From an uncultured Bacteroidales bacterium (GTDB lineage Bacteria; Bacteroidota; Bacteroidia; Bacteroidales; UBA932): DNA of 64,000 nt. Positions within the stretch are counted from its first letter, which is position 1; each line of letters opens with the position of its first letter. A program made the position numbers and the translations under genes. The stretch is taken from positions 1-64,000 of the forward strand of contig CALUPB010000006.1 of assembly GCA_944322585.1 (NCBI GenBank). Direction: 5' to 3'. Below, one piece after another: positions 54,692 to 64,000 of the stretch. The notes under the pieces are model-generated. The model saw only the letters and a list, made by a program, of their open reading frames with translations. It did no database searches and was not told the origin of the DNA.

Positions 54692-56128
54692 ATGATGTCA
54701 AGAAAACACAGGGAAATAATACTGGAGAATGTACTTGTAGAGGCCGTGGCTGCCGAAGGGAAAGCACTTTCGCATATAGACGGAGCCGTATTGTTCATAC
54801 AGTTCGCCGTTCCCGGCGACATAGTGGACGTCAGGGTCACAAAAAAGAAAAAGAACTATATGGAAGGATATATCCTGAGGATAGTCAGGCCTTCCGAACA
54901 CCGTCTCGAACCTTTCTGCAGTCATTTCGGTATCTGCGGAGGCTGCAAATGGCAGCCGCTGCCATACAATATGCAGCTTGAGGCGAAGCAGCGGCAGGTC
55001 TACGACCAGCTTGTCAGGATCGGACACCTTGACGTACCGCAACTCTCCCCTATCATAGCTTCCGACAGGACTGAATATTACCGCAACAAACTGGAGTTCA
55101 CCTTTTCCGAAAGAAGATGGATCGAAGACGGTGAAAATCCTGAGGAAATCGCTCCTGAAGACAGGACAGGGCTCGGTTTCCATGTGGGAAGATTTTTCGA
55201 CAAGGTTCTCGACATACGTACATGCTATCTCCAGAAAGAGCCTTCGAACGCCATCAGGCTGTTCATAAAGCAATACGCCACAGAACACGGTCTTCCTTTC
55301 TTCAATATAAGGGAACACCGCGGCCTTCTGCGCAACATGATCATCAGGACGACGGAAGCGGGGGAAGTCATGCTGATTGTATGTTTCTACCATGACGCCC
55401 CGGAAGTCAGGACTGCACTTCTCGATGCCGTTGCAGAACGGTTCCCGCAGATAACATCCCTGTATTATGTGATCAACGGCAAAGCCAATGATTCAATAGC
55501 CGATCTGGAATGCATATTATATAAAGGTAAGGAAACCATAGAGGAAGAGATGGAGGGACTGAAATTCCGGATAGGCCCGAAATCATTTTATCAGACCAAT
55601 TCGTCCCAGGCGTACAGACTCTATTGCGTTGCAAGGGATTTTGCCGCTCTCAGCGGCAGCGAAACCGTATATGACCTGTACACCGGAACAGGCACCATAG
55701 CACAGTTCGTCTCGGGAAAGGCACGTAAAGTAATAGGAATAGAGTATGTTCCCGAAGCGATAGCCGACGCTAAGATGAATGCCGCAAACAACGGCATCAC
55801 CAACTGCGAATTCTTCGCAGGGGACATGAAAGACGTGCTTGACAGCGGTTTCATTGCCTCCCACGGACATCCCGACGTCATAATCCTCGACCCTCCGAGA
55901 GCAGGCATACATCCGGATGTGGCGGAAGTCATACTCGAGGCAGCACCGGAAAGAATAGTGTATGTCAGCTGCAACCCTGCGTCACAGGCCAGGGACCTTG
56001 CCGTGCTCTGCGAAAAATACAGGATAACTGCCGTACAGCCTGTGGATATGTTCCCTCACACGCATCATGTGGAGAACGTAGTTGCCCTTGAACTGAAGCA
56101 GAAATCACCCTTTGTGTTGACCTCTTAG
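54692..56128 (+). CDS. rlmD: 23S rRNA (uracil-5-)-methyltransferase RlmD-like
   Basis: A 478-residue TrmA/RlmD-family enzyme. A TRAM domain (about 10-70, AVAAEGKALSHIDGAVLFI) is followed by iron-sulfur ligands CSHFGICGGC (Cys at about 71, 77 and 80) and a later Cys in IRTCYL, then the AdoMet domain with YDLYTGTGTIAQFV, ILDPPRAGIHPDV, and the catalytic Cys in VYVSCNPASQARDL. The conserved VDMFPHTHHVENV is present. A -7 box TATGTTTG lies at 54668-54675. The stop overlaps the convergent permease gene by four bases. Confidence 0.94.
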   Translation: MMSRKHREIILENVLVEAVAAEGKALSHIDGAVLFIQFAVPGDIVDVRVTKKKKNYMEGYILRIVRPSEHRLEPFCSHFGICGGCKWQPLPYNMQLEAKQRQVYDQLVRIGHLDVPQLSPIIASDRTEYYRNKLEFTFSERRWIEDGENPEEIAPEDRTGLGFHVGRFFDKVLDIRTCYLQKEPSNAIRLFIKQYATEHGLPFFNIREHRGLLRNMIIRTTEAGEVMLIVCFYHDAPEVRTALLDAVAERFPQITSLYYVINGKANDSIADLECILYKGKETIEEEMEGLKFRIGPKSFYQTNSSQAYRLYCVARDFAALSGSETVYDLYTGTGTIAQFVSGKARKVIGIEYVPEAIADAKMNAANNGITNCEFFAGDMKDVLDSGFIASHGHPDVIILDPPRAGIHPDVAEVILEAAPERIVYVSCNPASQARDLAVLCEKYRITAVQPVDMFPHTHHVENVVALELKQKSPFVLTS

Positions 56129-57972
56129 AACGGGAACAGCAGAGGCAGGACAAATATCATCACTGCCCCCATTATCAGCTGAAGCGGAAGCCCCACTTTC
56201 ACGTAGTCTCCGAACTTGTATCCTCCTGCACTCATTACCAATGCATTGGGCGGTGTCGAAAAAGGCGAGGCAAAGCACATGCTCGCCGCCACTGCCACTG
56301 CAAACAGATACGGATACGGACTTACTCCCATAGTCAGGGCCGCGTCCATTGCAATCGGGGCGAACAGGACGGCAGTTGCAGTGTTGCTCAGGAACATGGT
56401 CACTATGGATGTGGCGAAATACACTATGGCAAGCAGGGCATGAGGCCCCACATCCCCGAAACCATTCAGGAGAAAACCTGATATGTCCGACGTTATGCCC
56501 GTCTTGTCGAATGCGACAGACATGGGTATCATCGCCGCTATCAGCACGATACTGCTCCAGTTGATACTCGAGTACGCTTCCTCCATATTCCGCAGGCATC
56601 CTGTCACGACCATAAGCACCGCTGCAAGCATCACTGCCGCAACGGCCGGAATAATCTCGAGTACCATCACTACGACCATTGCAAGCAATATCGCAGCGGC
56701 AACCGGTGCCTTGCTGTCGAGCGTGACCTTTGCCATCCTCTTGTCAGGCTGGCCTACTATGACGAAGTCATCCGAATAATCCCCGAGAGCAGTGATATTC
56801 TCCCATGTCCCCTGTATCAGAAGGGCATCTCCCGAATGCATCCTGACATCCCTTATGTCTTCGAGAGCGGAGTCTCCGGACCTTTTGATACCCAGCACAT
56901 TGACATTGTAGTATTCCCTGAAGCGGCTGTCGGCAAGCGTATGGTTGATAAGGTGCGAATTGGGGACTATGAAAACGACAGCATACCCCGTCTCGGCGGT
57001 ATCCCCTGCCGCAAGAGCATCGGCCCGGGCGAATTCCAGACCGTTCTCCCTGACAAATCGGGCCACGTTCTCCTCGGGGCCGTGCACATTCAGGATATCA
57101 CCCGCAAGTATAACGCTTTCCGGACCGGCCACTTCTTCCGTGGCGTTCCTGCGCCTGAACCTCCCTTGCGGCTGATGAATTATGCGTCCGACGCTCAAGT
57201 CATATACAGACCCTATCTGCAGCTCCTTGAGAGAATGCCCCACAAGCGGAGATGCCGGGTTTACCCTGACGTTGAAAATCTGATGTGCAAGGTTGTATTC
57301 ATCCACGAGTTCGGATACGGACTTTGTCCGCCGCCTTTTCTTTCCTGAAGATTTGCTCTCCTTGTCCACGAGCAGTCTGCTCAGGAAAAACAGGACGGCA
57401 ATGCCCACTATGACCGCAACCGCACCCACAGGGGCAAAGGAGAAAAAGCCGAGAGGTTCGAGCCCCGCTCCGGTTATGGTATCCTGTATGACAAGGTTGG
57501 GCGGCGTGCTGATCAGAGTGAAAAGCCCCATACTGCTGGCAAAGGCCATCGGCATGAGATACCGGCCCGCACTGATGCCGGAAGATGAAGCCATACTCAT
57601 GACTATCGGCATCATCACGGCGACGGTTCCGGTATTGCTGACAAAGGCTCCTATAAACGAAGTGACAAGCATTACAAGCAGGAAGAGCATATTCTCGTTC
57701 CTGCCTCCGATTTTCAGGATGCGTCCCCCGATCATCTTTGCCAGTCCCGTCCGGAAAATTCCGGCCCCCACGACAAAAAGCCCTATCATCATTATTACTA
57801 CTGAACTCGAAAAGCCCGACAGTGCTTCCTCCGGTGTCAGAACATCCGAGAGAAGCAGTACAAGCAGCGATCCGAGGGCAACCAGATCCGACCGGACCTT
57901 CCCGCTCATGAACAGTATGCAGGACAGTGCCAGTACGATAAGGGTTATTGCTGATGGTCCGGGAAAAGTCAT
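56125..57972 (-). CDS. SLC13/DASS-type permease with two TrkA-C domains
   Basis: A 615-residue transporter with an N-terminal membrane half (about 1-205, with VSNTGTVAVMMPIVMSMA and LISTPPNLVIQDT, the paired re-entrant SNT-like motifs of the citrate/sulfate transporter superfamily), a soluble middle with two TrkA-C/RCK-C domains (about 225-400), and a C-terminal membrane half (FLSNTATAVLFAPIAM; SPFSTPPNALVMSAGGYKFGDY). Relatives move sulfate, citrate or other dicarboxylates with sodium; the soluble domains imply ligand control. Sulfate would fit the neighbouring sulfur-linked cluster, but this is speculative. Confidence 0.92.
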   Translation of the reverse strand: MTFPGPSAITLIVLALSCILFMSGKVRSDLVALGSLLVLLLSDVLTPEEALSGFSSSVVIMMIGLFVVGAGIFRTGLAKMIGGRILKIGGRNENMLFLLVMLVTSFIGAFVSNTGTVAVMMPIVMSMASSSGISAGRYLMPMAFASSMGLFTLISTPPNLVIQDTITGAGLEPLGFFSFAPVGAVAVIVGIAVLFFLSRLLVDKESKSSGKKRRRTKSVSELVDEYNLAHQIFNVRVNPASPLVGHSLKELQIGSVYDLSVGRIIHQPQGRFRRRNATEEVAGPESVILAGDILNVHGPEENVARFVRENGLEFARADALAAGDTAETGYAVVFIVPNSHLINHTLADSRFREYYNVNVLGIKRSGDSALEDIRDVRMHSGDALLIQGTWENITALGDYSDDFVIVGQPDKRMAKVTLDSKAPVAAAILLAMVVVMVLEIIPAVAAVMLAAVLMVVTGCLRNMEEAYSSINWSSIVLIAAMIPMSVAFDKTGITSDISGFLLNGFGDVGPHALLAIVYFATSIVTMFLSNTATAVLFAPIAMDAALTMGVSPYPYLFAVAVAASMCFASPFSTPPNALVMSAGGYKFGDYVKVGLPLQLIMGAVMIFVLPLLFPF

Positions 57973-57984
57973 ATGGCAATCATT

Positions 57985-58017
57985 TTTGCAAAATTAACAT
58001 TATATTTTATAACTTTG
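57985..58017 (+). promoter_or_regulatory. Promoter of the Hdr-like cluster
   Basis: TTTG (57985-57988) and TAACTTTG (58010-58017), 21 bases apart, match the consensus. It places the start of transcription near 58022 and excludes the TTG at 58025 as a start codon. Confidence 0.65.
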
Positions 58018-58039
58018 CACAGTTTTGTCTATGCTTATT

Positions 58040-58747
58040 ATGGGTAAACTTTATGACGAACTGAGCAAGGACTACAGGGTCAAGGAGGGACTGAAGACCT
58101 GTATCAACTGCGGCACATGCACTGCCATATGTCCTGCGGCTGAATTCTACAGGTACGATCCCAGGAAGATAGTGGACATAGTCCAGAGCAAGGATGAGGA
58201 CGAGATAGAGAAACTGCTGAAAAGCGACACTATCTGGTATTGCGGCGAGTGCATGTCCTGTGTCACGAGATGTCCCCGGAAGAACGGCCCGGGACTTGTC
58301 ATCATGGCGTTGAGGAACCTGTCCGCAAAGCTCGGCTATTTCGTGTACTCCGAAAAGGGACGGCAGCTCTATCCGCTTACAAGAATACTGACAGGCAATA
58401 TCCTGAATTACGGTTACTGCGTATATCCTGATACTTTCAAATGGGAGGATCATGTGGAATCCGGCCCTGTATGGAAATGGCATACGGAACATCTGAAAGA
58501 CAATTTCGAACGGCTCGGCGCCAATTATAAGGGTGACGGTCCCGGTGTGCTCAGGAAAATCCCGCAGGAAGCTCTCGACGAACTGAAGAGCATATTCGAT
58601 GTCACAGGAGGAACGGAAAGGATAGAGACCGTCAACAGATATTCCAGAAAAACCGCCGAAGAGATGGGATTGACCATGGAAGAATATTTCCGCAAGACTT
58701 TCGAGGAGATTTCTCCCGGACATCTCAATTCCGAGGATGAAGGATGA
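58040..58747 (+). CDS. HdrC-like [4Fe-4S] protein (first copy)
   Basis: A 235-residue soluble iron-sulfur protein with two full CxxCxxCxxxCP motifs, CINCGTCTAICP (about 21-32) and CGECMSCVTRCP (about 68-79), the arrangement of HdrC, an electron-transfer subunit of heterodisulfide reductase. The C-terminal 130 residues are longer than in methanogen HdrC. Start at ATG 58040 (MGKLYDELSKDYRV) is chosen; ATG 58031 is also in frame. It is the first of five Hdr-like genes and is preceded by its own promoter. Confidence 0.85.
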   Translation: MGKLYDELSKDYRVKEGLKTCINCGTCTAICPAAEFYRYDPRKIVDIVQSKDEDEIEKLLKSDTIWYCGECMSCVTRCPRKNGPGLVIMALRNLSAKLGYFVYSEKGRQLYPLTRILTGNILNYGYCVYPDTFKWEDHVESGPVWKWHTEHLKDNFERLGANYKGDGPGVLRKIPQEALDELKSIFDVTGGTERIETVNRYSRKTAEEMGLTMEEYFRKTFEEISPGHLNSEDEG

Positions 58748-58833
58748 GAACGGATGCCGTCCCCGGCAATCCAACACTATAATATTGATAATATAATACA
58801 AATCAAATAAATACGTCGGACTGACGTTCGGTT

Positions 58834-59904
58834 ATGATATATCAAGGAAAGCAGAAAATCTGGTCCGAATACCAGAAGGAAATACCTGATGACCACTGGT
58901 TCTATGTCAGGAGCTGCATCAGGCAGAATTTCTTTCCAGGTGCGGAAGTGATGTTCATGAAGATATGCAGGGATCTGCTTGGCAAGGACATATACGAGGC
59001 GGCTCACCATACGACCTGCGGCGGTATCGCCTACCATTGTGATACTATCCCGCAGGAGACGGTGATGACAATCGTGGCCCGCCAGTTCGCCCTCATGACG
59101 GAAGCCGGATACGAAAACTATGTGGCAAGCTGCATCACATCATTCGGCAACTACATAGAGATACTTGAGACATGGAACGAATTTCCGGAAGTGGAGGCAA
59201 AGGTAAGGGAAATGCTGTGGAAAGCATGCAGAAGGGAGTTCAACAAGCCGAAATACGTCGCCCATGCCAGTGATCTGGTGTACAAGTTCCGCAACGATAT
59301 CGCGGCAAGGGCGAAGTTCCGTCTGGTTAACCGGAAGACGGGTGAACCTCTCAAGGTAGTGGAGCACATCGGCTGCCATTATTCCAAGATGTTCCCTTCA
59401 AAGGGTGTGGGAGGCGCTGAATATCCCTACGTACTGTGCGGCATGATCGAGAGTTGGGGCGGGAACGTGATAGATTACCCTGAAAGACGGCACTGCTGCG
59501 GATACGGCTTCAGACAGTATCATGTAAAGGCCAACAGGGGCTATTCCATAGCCAACACCCACAAGAAATTCGAATCCATGGAACCCTACCATCCGGACAT
59601 GATCATCACCAACTGTCCCGGCTGTCCGTATTTTCTGGACAGATGGCAGTACGCCATTTCCGAACTGGAAGGCAAGACATACGGAGAGAACGGATACGGT
59701 ATTCCGGTGTTCACCTACGAAGAGGTGGCAGGACTTGTACTCGGCTATGACCCGTGGGATCTCGGCCTGCAGCTTCACCAGGTGGCCGTAGAGCCGCTCC
59801 TCGACAAGATTGGCATTCCATACGACCCCGACGAAAAATACAGGGGCATCAACCACAAGGATCTGTTGAAGCCTGAAATTCCGGGCGTACTCAGATGCTG
59901 CTGA
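58834..59904 (+). CDS. HdrB-like CCG-domain protein
   Basis: A 356-residue protein related to HdrB, which binds unusual noncubane iron-sulfur clusters through CCG motifs and reduces disulfides. The second CCG motif is complete: C181, C221-C222 (HCCGYGF) and C261-PG-C264. The first is degenerate (C28, C62 in TTCGG, C69, C100 in ASCITSF), so probably only one noncubane cluster is formed. The 86 bases upstream are AT-rich with an ACGTC/GACGT repeat but no clear promoter. It probably receives electrons from the HdrA/HdrC neighbours. Confidence 0.83.
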   Translation: MIYQGKQKIWSEYQKEIPDDHWFYVRSCIRQNFFPGAEVMFMKICRDLLGKDIYEAAHHTTCGGIAYHCDTIPQETVMTIVARQFALMTEAGYENYVASCITSFGNYIEILETWNEFPEVEAKVREMLWKACRREFNKPKYVAHASDLVYKFRNDIAARAKFRLVNRKTGEPLKVVEHIGCHYSKMFPSKGVGGAEYPYVLCGMIESWGGNVIDYPERRHCCGYGFRQYHVKANRGYSIANTHKKFESMEPYHPDMIITNCPGCPYFLDRWQYAISELEGKTYGENGYGIPVFTYEEVAGLVLGYDPWDLGLQLHQVAVEPLLDKIGIPYDPDEKYRGINHKDLLKPEIPGVLRCC

Positions 59905-59936
59905 AATTAATAACGTGATACTGTAGACCCGAACCG

Positions 59937-60959
59937 ATGAAAGAGAACATAGTAATAATAGGAGGCGGCATAGCCGGGCTCGAAGCGGCCGGACAGCTGA
60001 TCCGTCTGGGGTATTCGCCTATCATAGTCGAGAAACAGGATCATCTCGGAGGCCATGTCGCAGAATGGCACTGCCTTTTTCCCGACATGACCCCGGCCTC
60101 TGATGTCGTGTCCAGACTGACGGAGAACGTATCCGAGGCGAATATCTTCGTAAATACGGAAATCCTCTTTATAAACCACCTGAAGGACAGTTATAATGTC
60201 ATGCTGTCCAACGGGATTTCCATTGTCACCCGTATCATCCTTTTCACTACGGGTTTCCGACTTTTCGATGCATCGAAAAAAGAAGAATACGGCTATGGAG
60301 TATATGACCAGGTCATCACGAACAGGGATCTGGAACAATGGTTCAGCACCGGAAATGACGACAGGGTCAATTCCAGGGAACTGAACGCCGTCGGATTCGT
60401 GCACTGCGTGGGCTCCCGCGACGAAAAGGCCGGCAACGGACAGTGCTCCAAGGTATGCTGCATCACTGCCGTCAAACAGGCTATCGAGATGAAGCAGCGG
60501 TTTCCAGAAGCCCAGGTATACTGTTTCTATATGGATCTCAGGATGTTCGGCAAGAAATACGAGGATTTCTACATTTCCGCCCAGAGAGATTACGGAGTGC
60601 GTTTCATAAGAGGACGGGTATCCGAAGTCAGCGAGAACATCGAAGGGAAAGTCATCGTAAAGGCCGAGGACACGCTTGCCGGGAAACCGGTAAAGGTCAC
60701 GCTCGACCTGCTTGTACTTATGGCCGGCATAGTCTGCAATCCTGACTGCACCAAGGTAGCCTCCATGATACCGCTCCAGATGGACAGCGACGGATTTCTC
60801 AAAAGCCGGGACAATATCATGGACATAACTGGATCTTCCAGAAGCGGGATATTCTATGCAGGCGCATGCACAGGCGCCAAGACAGTGCCCGAGACACTTG
60901 CAGAAGCACGGTCCGCCGCTTTAGACATACACAACTATATCACCTCTTCACGGATATGA
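59937..60959 (+). CDS. HdrA-like FAD protein, short form
   Basis: A 340-residue flavoprotein with the FAD dinucleotide loop IIGGGIAGLEAAGQL at the start, HLGGHVAEW, the HdrA signature FVHCVGSRDEK ... CSKVCC that binds a [4Fe-4S] cluster, and a C-terminal IFYAGACTGAKTVPETLAEA. Methanogen HdrA is about 650 residues with ferredoxin domains; this one has none, like the short HdrA proteins of sulfur-oxidiser sHdr complexes and QmoA. It should pass electrons between a cofactor and the HdrBC partners. Its stop overlaps the next start (ATGA). Confidence 0.85.
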   Translation: MKENIVIIGGGIAGLEAAGQLIRLGYSPIIVEKQDHLGGHVAEWHCLFPDMTPASDVVSRLTENVSEANIFVNTEILFINHLKDSYNVMLSNGISIVTRIILFTTGFRLFDASKKEEYGYGVYDQVITNRDLEQWFSTGNDDRVNSRELNAVGFVHCVGSRDEKAGNGQCSKVCCITAVKQAIEMKQRFPEAQVYCFYMDLRMFGKKYEDFYISAQRDYGVRFIRGRVSEVSENIEGKVIVKAEDTLAGKPVKVTLDLLVLMAGIVCNPDCTKVASMIPLQMDSDGFLKSRDNIMDITGSSRSGIFYAGACTGAKTVPETLAEARSAALDIHNYITSSRI

Positions 60960-61291
60960 TGAATTTCGGCTTCAAGATAGCTCCGAGCGCCACGATTAAC
61001 CTGGACAATGTCGACATGGAAAAATTCACTCTTCTCCATGAGATGGAACCGGATGTGTACAAGTGCATGGCCTGCGGCTCGTGCAGCGCAACATGTCCGG
61101 CCGGACGTTTTACGGGAATGAGCGTGCGGAAGGTGATACTCGACCTTCAGAGAGGACGGGAGAAGGAGGCCGTGAGGATGCTCAAGGGATGCATGCTGTG
61201 CGGGAAATGCAGCATGGTGTGTCCGAGAGGCATCAACACAAGACACCTGATATTGTCCGTATGTAGAATCTATAATGAGGATAAGCAGTGA
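60956..61291 (+). CDS. HdrC-like [4Fe-4S] protein (second copy)
   Basis: A 111-residue protein with two CxxCxxCxxxCP motifs, CMACGSCSATCP (about 36-47) and CMLCGKCSMVCP (about 79-90). It starts at ATG 60956, overlapping the stop of the HdrA-like gene; the frame extends upstream but only into that gene. It overlaps the next gene by GTGA. It is a small electron carrier of the same complex. Confidence 0.85.
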   Translation: MMNFGFKIAPSATINLDNVDMEKFTLLHEMEPDVYKCMACGSCSATCPAGRFTGMSVRKVILDLQRGREKEAVRMLKGCMLCGKCSMVCPRGINTRHLILSVCRIYNEDKQ

Positions 61292-63135
61292 GAGAAAGGT
61301 TTCTGACAGGATATAACGACTTTGTGCTGCCGTTCATGATAGGGATGATATTCATCCTGACATGGTGTACCGTCGGCATGATCCGTATCATTGCAAATCT
61401 TCCCAAAGATGACAGGAAACGGTTTTTCCTGTCTCTGGTGAATCCGAAGATAATGCTGAAGAATATCCGCGACATCTTCTGCGACTGTCTGTTCCATGTC
61501 AAGCTGTGGAAAAGGAACAGACTTCTCGGCTACATGCATTCGAGCATAGCTTTCGGATGGTTCATGCTGATTGTCATAGGGCATATCGAAGTGTTCTTTT
61601 ATGCTCCTCACAGGGCCAAACTCCTCTATTTCCCTATATTCTTCAGGTATTTCATGGCTGAAGACGACAGCACCATGGGAGGAGCCTTCTTTTTCTTCCT
61701 CATGGACTTCTTCCTCCTGGTGGTGCTGAGCGGAATAGCCCTCGCCATAGTCAAAAGGGTCCACTCCCGTTTCTTCGGAATGAGGAGGACCACCAATCCG
61801 AGTTTCATGGATCTGGTAGGTCTGTATTCGCTGTGGTCGATATTTCCGCTCAGACTGTTCGCCGAAGGGTTCACGGCCGACATAAGCGGAGGATCTTTCC
61901 TGACGGAGTCCCTGAATCATGTCTTCCATGCGTTTCTCGGCAACCACATGAACATGCTGCCGACATGGTGGGCCTATTCACTTGCTCTCGGCATATTCTT
62001 CTGCGCCCTTCCGTTCACCAGGTACATGCATATCCCGACGGAAATTCTCCTGATACCTTTGAGAAACGCCGGCGTCAGGATAAGGCATCCGCGCAAAGGT
62101 TATGCAGAAGCGGAAGTCTACGCCTGTCCGAGCTGCGGCGTATGCATCGACGCATGCCCTATGGGCGTAATGAAAACCCATATCAAGGATACCACCGTAT
62201 ATCTTAACAGGCAGCTGAGAAGACACAACGAAACACGGATAGAAGAAATCAGCGACAAGTGTCTCTTATGCGGGAAATGCACCGCAGTATGCCCGGTCGG
62301 CGTCGAGGGAGACAGACTCAGGATAGCCCAGAGATCGGCCCGCAAATACAATATCAGCCCCGACTACTCATGCATCGACACGGATATACTGAAGAAAGAG
62401 GCTTCATTCAGGGCTCCGGCATCCGGCAAGGTCCTGTATTTTGCCGGATGCATGACTGCCCTGACACCACAGATCAGGAAATCGGTAGAATCCGTACTGA
62501 CCCGATGCGGGACCGATTACGAGTTCATGGACCGGGACGGAGGGATCTGCTGCGGAAGGCCAATGCTGATGGCAGGAAGATTCGATGCTGCGGAAGAAAT
62601 GATTGCGAAGAATACCGACATAATCCTCGGCAGCGGGGCGGATACTCTTCTCCTGAGCTGTCCTATATGCTACAGGATATTCAGGGAAAACTACAACCTC
62701 GGGAAAATGCGTATCGTACATCATACCGAATATTTTGCGGAACTCATCGGATCCGGGACTATCGGTATGCTGCACGGTTCAGACAGGTACGTATTCCACG
62801 ACCCGTGCGAGCTCGGACGTGGCTGTGGCATCTATGATGAGCCGAGAGCAGTCCTTTCAGCCGCAGGAGAACTCGTGGAAGCCGAGAAGCATCACAGGGA
62901 AAGTATCTGCTGCGGGGGAAGCCTCGGCAGTCTGACCCTCGGGTTCGGGAAACGGCAGGCGATGACGGAAAATGCACTGCATAACCTGACAGCGGCGTCG
63001 CCGGATTCCATAGTGACGGCATGTCCGCTCTGTCTGAGCACTTTCCACCGCTATGCAGACAGACCTGTCATGGACATAGCCGAAGTGGTGGACAGGAATA
63101 TGATACCTGCTGACAGCAATGATATTGATGACTAA
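61288..63135 (+). CDS. HdrE-HdrD-like membrane iron-sulfur fusion protein
   Basis: A 615-residue protein starting at GTG 61288. The N-terminal half (about 1-250) has five membrane helices of the NarI/DsrM/HdrE type; H84 and H99 in one stretch and H211, H214 and H220 in another are candidate heme-b ligands. Two ferredoxin motifs follow (C270-C280 in CPSCGVCIDACP; C315-C325 in CLLCGKCTAVCP), then two CCG motifs (GICCGRP with SCPICY; SICCGGSLG with ACPLC) as in HdrD/DsrK. It probably links the soluble Hdr-like proteins with the quinone pool. Confidence 0.85.
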   Translation: MRERFLTGYNDFVLPFMIGMIFILTWCTVGMIRIIANLPKDDRKRFFLSLVNPKIMLKNIRDIFCDCLFHVKLWKRNRLLGYMHSSIAFGWFMLIVIGHIEVFFYAPHRAKLLYFPIFFRYFMAEDDSTMGGAFFFFLMDFFLLVVLSGIALAIVKRVHSRFFGMRRTTNPSFMDLVGLYSLWSIFPLRLFAEGFTADISGGSFLTESLNHVFHAFLGNHMNMLPTWWAYSLALGIFFCALPFTRYMHIPTEILLIPLRNAGVRIRHPRKGYAEAEVYACPSCGVCIDACPMGVMKTHIKDTTVYLNRQLRRHNETRIEEISDKCLLCGKCTAVCPVGVEGDRLRIAQRSARKYNISPDYSCIDTDILKKEASFRAPASGKVLYFAGCMTALTPQIRKSVESVLTRCGTDYEFMDRDGGICCGRPMLMAGRFDAAEEMIAKNTDIILGSGADTLLLSCPICYRIFRENYNLGKMRIVHHTEYFAELIGSGTIGMLHGSDRYVFHDPCELGRGCGIYDEPRAVLSAAGELVEAEKHHRESICCGGSLGSLTLGFGKRQAMTENALHNLTAASPDSIVTACPLCLSTFHRYADRPVMDIAEVVDRNMIPADSNDIDD

Positions 63136-63147
63136 AACCTGATAATT

Positions 63148-64000
63148 ATGAAATTTACACCGACTAAGTACACGCTGGTCAACTATGCTGACGGGAGAAG
63201 ATTCGAGGATACCGGCTGGATGCTGGCCGACCCGCAGGCTGCTGAACCTTCTTTGATCAGAGCCGATTACGAAATAAGACGGTTCAATCCGAGGGAGGAT
63301 CTTGACGGTTTCTACAGATATGCGGACTGGCTGCCGATAAGAAGGACACTCGAGCATTCCCATGCCCCGGTAACATACAGAAGCGAGGGGCTGGCATCCT
63401 GCCTCGGTCTGGAAAATCTCTATATTACATTCTCGGGATATTTCCCTAAGATAGGTGCCCGGATGGAGACATGTTCCTTCAAGGAGACTGAGGCATATTC
63501 GGTCTGCGCCAGAATACCTGAAAACAGCGGGCGCATATTGGTGCTGGCCTCCGCAGGAAACACGGCACGTGCCTTTGCCAAGGTATGTTCCGACAACAAT
63601 ATTCCCGTGGTAATATCTGTGCCTGAAGACAATATCGGGGCACTGTGGTTCCACAAGCCGCTCAACAGCTGCGTGAAGATAATAGCCGCCCCTGCCGGAA
63701 GCGACTATTTCGATGCCATCGCCTTGGCCGACAAGCTCAACGAATCCCCGAGGTATATGGCTGAAGGCGGAGCCAAGAACATTGCCAGGAGGGACGGTAT
63801 GGGCACTACCCTGCTCTCTGCAGTGGAGGTCATCGGAAGAATCCCTGATGCCTATTTCCAGGCAATCGGCAGCGGTACGGGAACGATTGCGGTCTGGGAG
63901 AACAATCTGAGGCTCATCAGGGACGGACGTTTCGGTTCCCACAAGATGAGGCTGTATCCTTCACAGAACGCCCCGTTCACCATCATGTATGATTCCTGGA
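63148..64000 (+). CDS. Threonine-synthase-like PLP enzyme, probable cysteate synthase (partial)
   Basis: A frame open from ATG 63148 to the window edge (284 codons, no stop), 12 bases after the previous stop. It is a fold-II PLP enzyme: the PLP lysine is in METCSFKETEAYSV, and the cofactor-binding loop is ASAGNTARAFAKV. Later GGAKNIARRDGMGTTLLSAVE and AIGSGTGTIAVWE fit the threonine synthase/cysteate synthase family. The N-terminus (YTLVNYADGRRFEDTGWMLAD) lacks the zinc-ribbon-like start of true threonine synthases. Cysteate synthase makes cysteate from phosphoserine and sulfite, the first committed step of sulfonolipids in some gut Bacteroidota. The specific call is inference. Confidence 0.7.
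   Translation, partial: MKFTPTKYTLVNYADGRRFEDTGWMLADPQAAEPSLIRADYEIRRFNPREDLDGFYRYADWLPIRRTLEHSHAPVTYRSEGLASCLGLENLYITFSGYFPKIGARMETCSFKETEAYSVCARIPENSGRILVLASAGNTARAFAKVCSDNNIPVVISVPEDNIGALWFHKPLNSCVKIIAAPAGSDYFDAIALADKLNESPRYMAEGGAKNIARRDGMGTTLLSAVEVIGRIPDAYFQAIGSGTGTIAVWENNLRLIRDGRFGSHKMRLYPSQNAPFTIMYDSW

Follow-up and report, generated by a model that had tools for sequence, protein, structure and literature searches.

A heterodisulfide reductase-like gene block beside cysteate synthase in a Bacteroidales genome as a candidate source of sulfite for sulfonolipid synthesis

The first 64,000 nucleotides of contig CALUPB010000006.1 (assembly GCA_944322585.1, an uncultured Bacteroidales bacterium), referred to here as the window, end in a block of five co-directional genes for relatives of heterodisulfide reductase (Hdr) subunits, hdrC1-hdrB-hdrA-hdrC2-hdrED (58040-63135), and in the start of a gene for a pyridoxal phosphate (PLP) enzyme. 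A preliminary description of the window had recognized an Hdr-like cluster next to a probable cysteate synthase, and domain and profile scans (Pfam, NCBIfam) of the window's open reading frames (ORFs) and of the separately fetched complete PLP gene confirm that arrangement:

57985-58017, + strand: promoter-like site 5' of hdrC1, as read from the sequence against what we take to be the Bacteroidetes promoter consensus (TTTG at 57985-57988, 21 bases, then TAACTTTG at 58010-58017)
58040 (ATG)-58747, + strand: hdrC1, ferredoxin-type HdrC; its ORF opens with TTG at 58025 (NCBIfam HdrC, 8.7e-23)
58834-59904, + strand: hdrB, in which one CCG site is complete and the other reduced (NCBIfam, 9.8e-38)
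59937-60959, + strand: hdrA, a short FAD protein of 340 residues with the motif CVGSR..CS.VCC (NCBIfam, 1.2e-70)
60956-61291, + strand: hdrC2, a double [4Fe-4S] protein of 111 residues (NCBIfam, 2.2e-10)
61288-63135, + strand: hdrED, 615 residues, with a membrane domain, a ferredoxin domain and two complete CCG sites (domain scan)
63148-64000, + strand: cysteate synthase gene, truncated where the window stops; the whole gene ends at contig position 64434 (TIGR03844, 9k3c)

The block is compact: its genes are separated by gaps of 86 and 32 bases and then overlap twice by 4 bases, and 12 bases lie between hdrED and the PLP gene. The hdrC1 start at 58040 agrees with relatives that open MGKL or MGNL. 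The window genome contains three matches to the CCG domain (PF02754), every one inside the block; two of these domains accompany a double [4Fe-4S] domain in HdrED. Because the NCBIfam scores all lie below the curated cut-offs, we regard the block proteins as Hdr relatives and not as equivalents of the named families.

HdrA had been described as short in the manner of sulfur-oxidizing Hdr (sHdr) systems, and its match to PDB 6tjr, which we take to be the sHdrA of Hyphomicrobium denitrificans, is indeed full-length (residues 4-330, 205.3 bits); methanogen HdrA matches residues 95-329 at most. In a tree of 14 of the 21 aligned block sequences, two sHdrA and 19 other Bacteroidales HdrA, chosen by hand, the block and sHdrA lie on one side with support of 96/92, in a topology that is unrooted and contains two sHdr sequences only. 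The N-terminal site of HdrB is reduced (C28/C62/C100 with T102-S103; C..C..CxTS), a condition common to both sHdrB1 proteins found; the aligned methanogen HdrB has CC and CxxC at these places. The C-terminal CCG site is complete, where the two sHdrB1 carry D for one cysteine, and the block HdrB alignment shows invariant cysteines. In HdrED, the invariant positions are H70, H84, H248, the eight ferredoxin cysteines and both complete CCG sites. The predicted structure of HdrED (pLDDT 83.2) has as its best fold match EtfD (9ojn; TM 0.67/0.57, 15% identity), presumably a menaquinone-linked protein. These invariant residues and the modelled fold make it plausible that electrons move between menaquinone and the soluble Hdr proteins, and they lend qualified support to the link with quinones that had been suggested.

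The PLP gene read whole (L004:5649-6935; L denotes a fetched locus, G a genome) encodes 428 residues, which score 453.5 bits against TIGR03844 (cut-off 324.9) and 560.7 bits against the solved cysteate synthase 9k3c, its closest solved protein. The preliminary description had named an ordinary threonine synthase as the alternative; this is rejected, the solved threonine synthases scoring at most 40.9 bits. By its sequence, then, the gene is a true cysteate synthase. The region right of position 64000 had been proposed as the place to look for the acyltransferase and the short-chain dehydrogenase/reductase (SDR) of the pathway; what can be made out there by eye are TrpS, a nitroreductase and housekeeping genes, with no sulA or capC-like SDR up to contig position 77000. 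Both lie instead on contig 4, where SulA scores 723.8 bits against a relative's SulA and 590.1 bits against crystal structure 7U7H. Passages of PMC9304779 name 7U7H as SulA and give Lys281, in place of an alanine in Spt, as the residue that separates SulA from serine palmitoyltransferase; the window-genome protein keeps this lysine in its alignment to 7u7h, and the next gene encodes an SDR of 274 residues. The window genome, which is 93.5% complete, thus has a cysteate synthase, an SDR and a SulA that carries Lys281. Searches of the same genome for CysD and CysH found neither, and no gene for a VOC (glyoxalase-superfamily) protein was found beside its SulA.

The distribution of these genes was followed in an order sample of 247 Bacteroidales genomes and in a phylum sample of 296 genomes, the latter with only three genomes of the window's order as far as listed. 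The genome sets used for statistics were compiled by hand from search listings and comprise, in the order sample, 78 genomes with block-type HdrA (at least 219 bits), 66 with cysteate synthase (over the TIGR03844 cut-off), 175 with SulA, 47 with a second PLP enzyme that we call PALP2 (about 84-144 bits, below the TIGR03844 cut-off), 136 with strong and 17 with weak CysH matches, and 162 with CysD at E <1e-50 (159 over its cut-off). The gene caller masks genes that lie under longer opposite frames and missed small block genes; block loci were recounted by tblastn, which also found SulA in two loci (L251, L252) that had no gene-caller matches. In the phylum sample SulA occurs in 108 of the 296 genomes and a full HdrB match in the window genome only; two other genomes, at 142-144 bits, proved to hold sHdr loci. 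A further set of 80 named loci, the best among 588, leans for that reason to the window's kin. Among them the closest hdrB (95%) is that of Candidatus Cryptobacteroides intestinavium, and the window genome is itself placed near Candidatus Cryptobacteroides.

The block is no chance grouping: all five genes stand together in 19 of the 20 loci fetched for block-type HdrA (L072 is without HdrC1 and HdrB), in two of them (L083, L084) with the order changed. In the named loci, cysteate synthase directly follows hdrED in 42, is absent from the fetched flank in 30, and the flank is too short in 8; the 30 genomes of the second group, whose completeness is not given, carry SulA at 70% identity or more in 23 cases and not in 7. 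Furthermore, seven of the 80 (L158, L159, L185, L192, L199, L202, L206; Alistipes sp. and Paludibacteraceae included) display a close-packed, co-directional nine-gene order, VOC-SulA-SDR-HdrC1-HdrB-HdrA-HdrC2-HdrED-cysteate synthase. The other six of the 13 loci inspected comprise one with this order minus VOC (L212), one minus SulA (L188) and four with the block and cysteate synthase only. A second kind of cluster was encountered in L081-L084, from four genomes that belong to three other families; here the block stands with SulA and a threonine-synthase-like PLP enzyme in all four, with an SDR in three and with VOC in three; the L083 acyltransferase scores 579.3 bits against SulA versus 210.9 against serine palmitoyltransferase. 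Among the remaining 16 of the 20 fetched HdrA loci, two have cysteate synthase beside the block. Cysteate synthase and block HdrA are both present in 28 of the 247 genomes; they adjoin in three of these, all from the window's family, and elsewhere often lie on different contigs. No conserved cysteate synthase neighbourhood emerged outside that family in 20 loci fetched from the 66 genomes.

VOC proteins of about 350-370 residues adjoin SulA in loci that contain the block and also in loci that contain CysH:

L158:6133-7203, VOC gene beside SulA
L083:13169-14239, VOC gene beside SulA
L238:12207-13262, VOC gene beside SulA
L241:6153-7268, VOC gene beside SulA
L244:12962-14065, VOC gene beside SulA

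PALP2, the threonine-synthase-like enzyme, has a cysteine-rich N-terminus and clusters with SulA:

L082:11912-13141, PALP2 gene
L083:15450-16670, PALP2 gene
L236-L245, further PALP2 genes

It scores below the cut-offs of both the cysteate synthase and the threonine synthase models, the solved proteins that it matches are threonine synthases, and among the 175 genomes with SulA it never shares a genome with cysteate synthase. That non-co-occurrence fits a statement in part of the review PMC10191378, by which the enzyme of Alistipes and Odoribacter is an archaeal-type cysteate synthase and that of other Bacteroidota is CapA; PALP2 may be CapA. As a separate observation, at the cut-offs used neither PLP enzyme is found in 73 of the 175 genomes with SulA, which may therefore have another cysteate source or a variant that was missed.

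Fifteen PALP2 loci were picked by coordinates that place PALP2 near SulA, CysH or CysD; none has the block at the locus, although two of the genomes, G167 (L241) and G022 (L245), carry it elsewhere. SulA, CysH and PALP2 stand together in eight of the fifteen: L236, L237, L238 and L240, in which CysH is divergent (121-145 bits, 32-35% identity), L239 with a permease in addition, and L241, L242 and L244, which add VOC, CysD, CysN, an SLC13-type permease and CysQ. The others comprise CysH-CysD-CysN-PALP2 (L243, L245), a locus with CysD (L250), and SulA with PALP2 and neither CysH nor the block (L246-L249). CysH forms sulfite, and that it occupies in these loci the place held elsewhere by the block is the strongest hint that the product of the block is sulfite. 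CysD had been searched first, and CysH was searched afterwards since many CysD loci have no CysH nearby and are of a CysQ/CysC/CysD/CysN kind (20 loci, L216-L235). The CysD matches themselves form two groups, above 485 bits and at about 410-440 bits, the former standing with CysN, CysC and CysQ and with no CysH adjacent in the loci inspected.

Co-occurrence across the order sample ties the block to SulA. SulA is present in 73 of 78 genomes with the block versus 102 of 169 others (p=1.2e-8), and at one genome per family (119 genomes, G000-G007 and G009-G119, the family labels of unlisted genomes following handle order) in 36 of 37 with the block versus 52 of 82 without it (p=3e-5). In families without CysH, SulA accompanies the block in 14 of 14 and occurs in 10 of 30 without it (p=3.4e-5). 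Either the block or CysH is found in 160 of 175 SulA-positive and 20 of 72 SulA-negative genomes (p=2e-23); CysH taken by itself likewise goes with SulA (135 of 175 versus 18 of 72). Among SulA-positive genomes the block and CysH are anti-correlated (odds ratio 0.33, p=0.003). The preliminary description held that relatives which keep the block without the lipid pathway would count against a role in sulfonolipid synthesis; SulA is missing from just five of the 78 block genomes, three of them at most 82% complete and the others 94% and 99% complete, and the proposal thus came through nearly unscathed.

Taken together with the clusters, this co-occurrence leads us to conclude that the block very probably works for sulfonolipid synthesis. 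It is likely, if with less assurance, that what it supplies is sulfite, and the odds are about even that the route is an oxidation in which menaquinone accepts the electrons. The overall explanation that we favour, and hold to be somewhat probable, is a menaquinone-linked, membrane-bound relative of sHdr that provides sulfite for cysteate in the synthesis of capnine-type sulfonolipids. The five proteins would form one complex, in which sulfur in reduced form, either sulfide or sulfane sulfur bound to a thiol, would become sulfite at the iron-sulfur (CCG) sites in HdrB and HdrED. The electrons would pass by way of HdrC1, the FAD of HdrA and HdrC2 to HdrED, and from there to menaquinone. Cysteate synthase would then join sulfite to phosphoserine, SulA would condense cysteate with acyl-ACP, and the SDR would reduce the product. 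Both the sulfur donor and the direction of electron flow are inferred here. Menaquinone has a potential close to that at which sulfide or sulfane sulfur is oxidized to sulfite, and an anaerobe with fumarate respiration could therefore, on general grounds, sustain this oxidation.

Several observations weigh against this explanation. In families with CysH there is no tie between block and SulA (22 of 23 versus 42 of 52, p=0.16), and CysH is also present in 48 of the 73 SulA-positive block genomes. The exclusion of block and CysH falls to p=0.053 at one genome per family; in the 16 families whose SulA-positive genomes include some that have the block and some that lack it, CysH is more frequent among the latter in four, more frequent among the former in four and equal in eight. 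Mutual exclusion is accordingly weakened, not being seen within families. Neither cysteate synthase nor PALP2 reaches the cut-offs used in 36 of the 78 block genomes, 14 of the 20 fetched HdrA loci have no sulfonolipid gene near the block, and the searches for TusA and for lipoyl carriers identified no sulfur carrier for the block.

An alternative that would serve the same lipid pathway is reductive release, in which menaquinol electrons would split the S-S bond next to a sulfonate (in thiosulfate, or in an S-sulfonate such as S-sulfocysteine) to give a thiol or sulfide together with sulfite. Of the proposals this one most resembles the chemistry of classical heterodisulfide reductases, HdrED shares with those enzymes two complete CCG sites, and the genetic association with SulA and cysteate synthase speaks for it equally; HdrA and the reduced HdrB site, however, side with the sulfur-oxidizing sHdr, a comparison drawn from two sHdr loci only, and we consider reductive release unlikely. 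Less likely again is a general role as a thiol-quinone redox or energy enzyme whose genes share operons with lipid genes for regulatory reasons: the 14 fetched loci and 30 named loci described above, together with the modelled resemblance of HdrED to an electron carrier protein, EtfD, would suit such an enzyme, but the block is joined to sulfonolipid genes in different arrangements and its tie to SulA persists at one genome per family. The least credible proposal, a reversed balance in which the block helps to remove excess sulfite or maintains a redox partner of the pathway in its reduced state while sulfite arrives from elsewhere (for example by uptake through a neighbouring permease), draws on the permeases that adjoin the window block and the L067 cysteate synthase gene, yet the block has no sulfite-reducing enzyme (sulfite reductases elsewhere were not searched) and permeases give no reason for a redox complex in the position that CysH has in other loci.

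The permeases and other neighbours are as follows:

56125-57972, - strand: divergent SLC13-type permease (CitMHS, TrkA_C, Na_sulph_symp; Pfam), a possible partner of the block
L004:7012-7950: MscS channel gene after cysteate synthase in the window genome (Pfam)
L067:12876-14651 (G224): SulP-type permease gene overlapping the end of the cysteate synthase gene (Pfam Sulfate_transp, 293.8 bits)

The same CitMHS/TrkA_C/Na_sulph_symp trio occurs in the permeases of two SulA-CysH loci, L239 and L241, and relatives of the MscS channel gene are found in 27 of the 80 named loci.

Sulfonolipids of gut bacteria have been linked to immune responses (in passages of PMC11211663). The use of an archaeal-type cysteate synthase in place of CapA by Alistipes and Odoribacter is already published, as noted above. 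What is new is the placement of the block inside the VOC-SulA-SDR-Hdr-cysteate synthase order, and its company with SulA and the other PLP enzyme in three other families, along with the association of block-type HdrA and SulA across the order and the position of CysH beside SulA in PLP-enzyme loci that lack the block. The word sulfite is absent from the texts of PMC9304779, PMC11211663, PMC10191378 and PMC12927429, and passages of sulfonolipid papers such as PMC9304779 and PMC10191378 mention neither a sulfite source nor an Hdr complex in the operon; a search of the openly licensed PMC literature found no paper that joins sulfonolipid with heterodisulfide reductase, though a description elsewhere is possible. 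The clusters name a candidate enzyme for the way in which an anaerobe without sulfate reduction obtains sulfite for cysteate and, if this is true, Hdr chemistry reaches from energy metabolism into lipid building. We suggest, tentatively and at slightly less than even odds, a previously undescribed assimilatory sulfur-oxidizing complex: an sHdr relative without a lipoate carrier, coupled to menaquinone through the fused HdrED, with which strict anaerobes would form sulfite from reduced sulfur for a membrane lipid, in the position that CysH, an enzyme of sulfate reduction, has in other sulfonolipid loci.

Among known systems, the block resembles sHdr in its short HdrA, which the tree places with sHdrA, in the reduced N-terminal site of HdrB, and in part of the gene order. 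The similarity of order pointed out in the preliminary description therefore stands for HdrC1-HdrB-HdrA-...-HdrC2 and fails beyond it: there is no hyp gene, and the separate soluble HdrB2 is replaced by the membrane fusion HdrED. The C-terminal site of HdrB is complete, unlike that of sHdrB1, and the block is tied to lipid synthesis, not to energy metabolism. TusA was not found in the window genome, nor in 21 of the 25 genomes (the window's included) that have the block and SulA and no CysH. The lipoate-binding protein LbpA was not found either: the one strong lipoyl-carrier match in the window genome looks like GcvH, lying by eye between gcvT-like and gcvP-like genes, and a second is weak (24.9 bits); in G018 the search gave no match whatsoever. 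Passages of PMC10332631 state that shdr genomes encode LbpA with very few exceptions. Canonical sHdr, with its HdrB2 and LbpA, is rejected, and because the TusA and LbpA findings do not fit sHdr, we call the block an sHdr relative and not sHdr. In the same phylum, outside the window's class, two sHdr loci (L267 and L268; G281 and G363) hold LbpA-like, DsrE-like, ETF-like and membrane EtfD-like genes.

HdrED resembles membrane proteins of the EtfD/HdrED type in its membrane helices, ferredoxin domain and two CCG sites; unlike them, it is accompanied by HdrC1-B-A-C2, with no ETF genes seen beside the block. QmoABC likewise combines a short protein resembling HdrA with a membrane subunit linked to quinones; it is rejected as an identity since the block has no QmoB-like gene and HdrC1 scores 49.6 bits against qmoC (cut-off 300). 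The methanogen type of HdrABC has a long HdrA and two complete CCG sites in HdrB, features that the 340-residue HdrA and the incomplete N-terminal site of HdrB do not share. The published sulfonolipid pathway (cysteate synthase or CapA, then SulA/CapB and CapC) is matched in the window genome by a cysteate synthase, SulA and an SDR.

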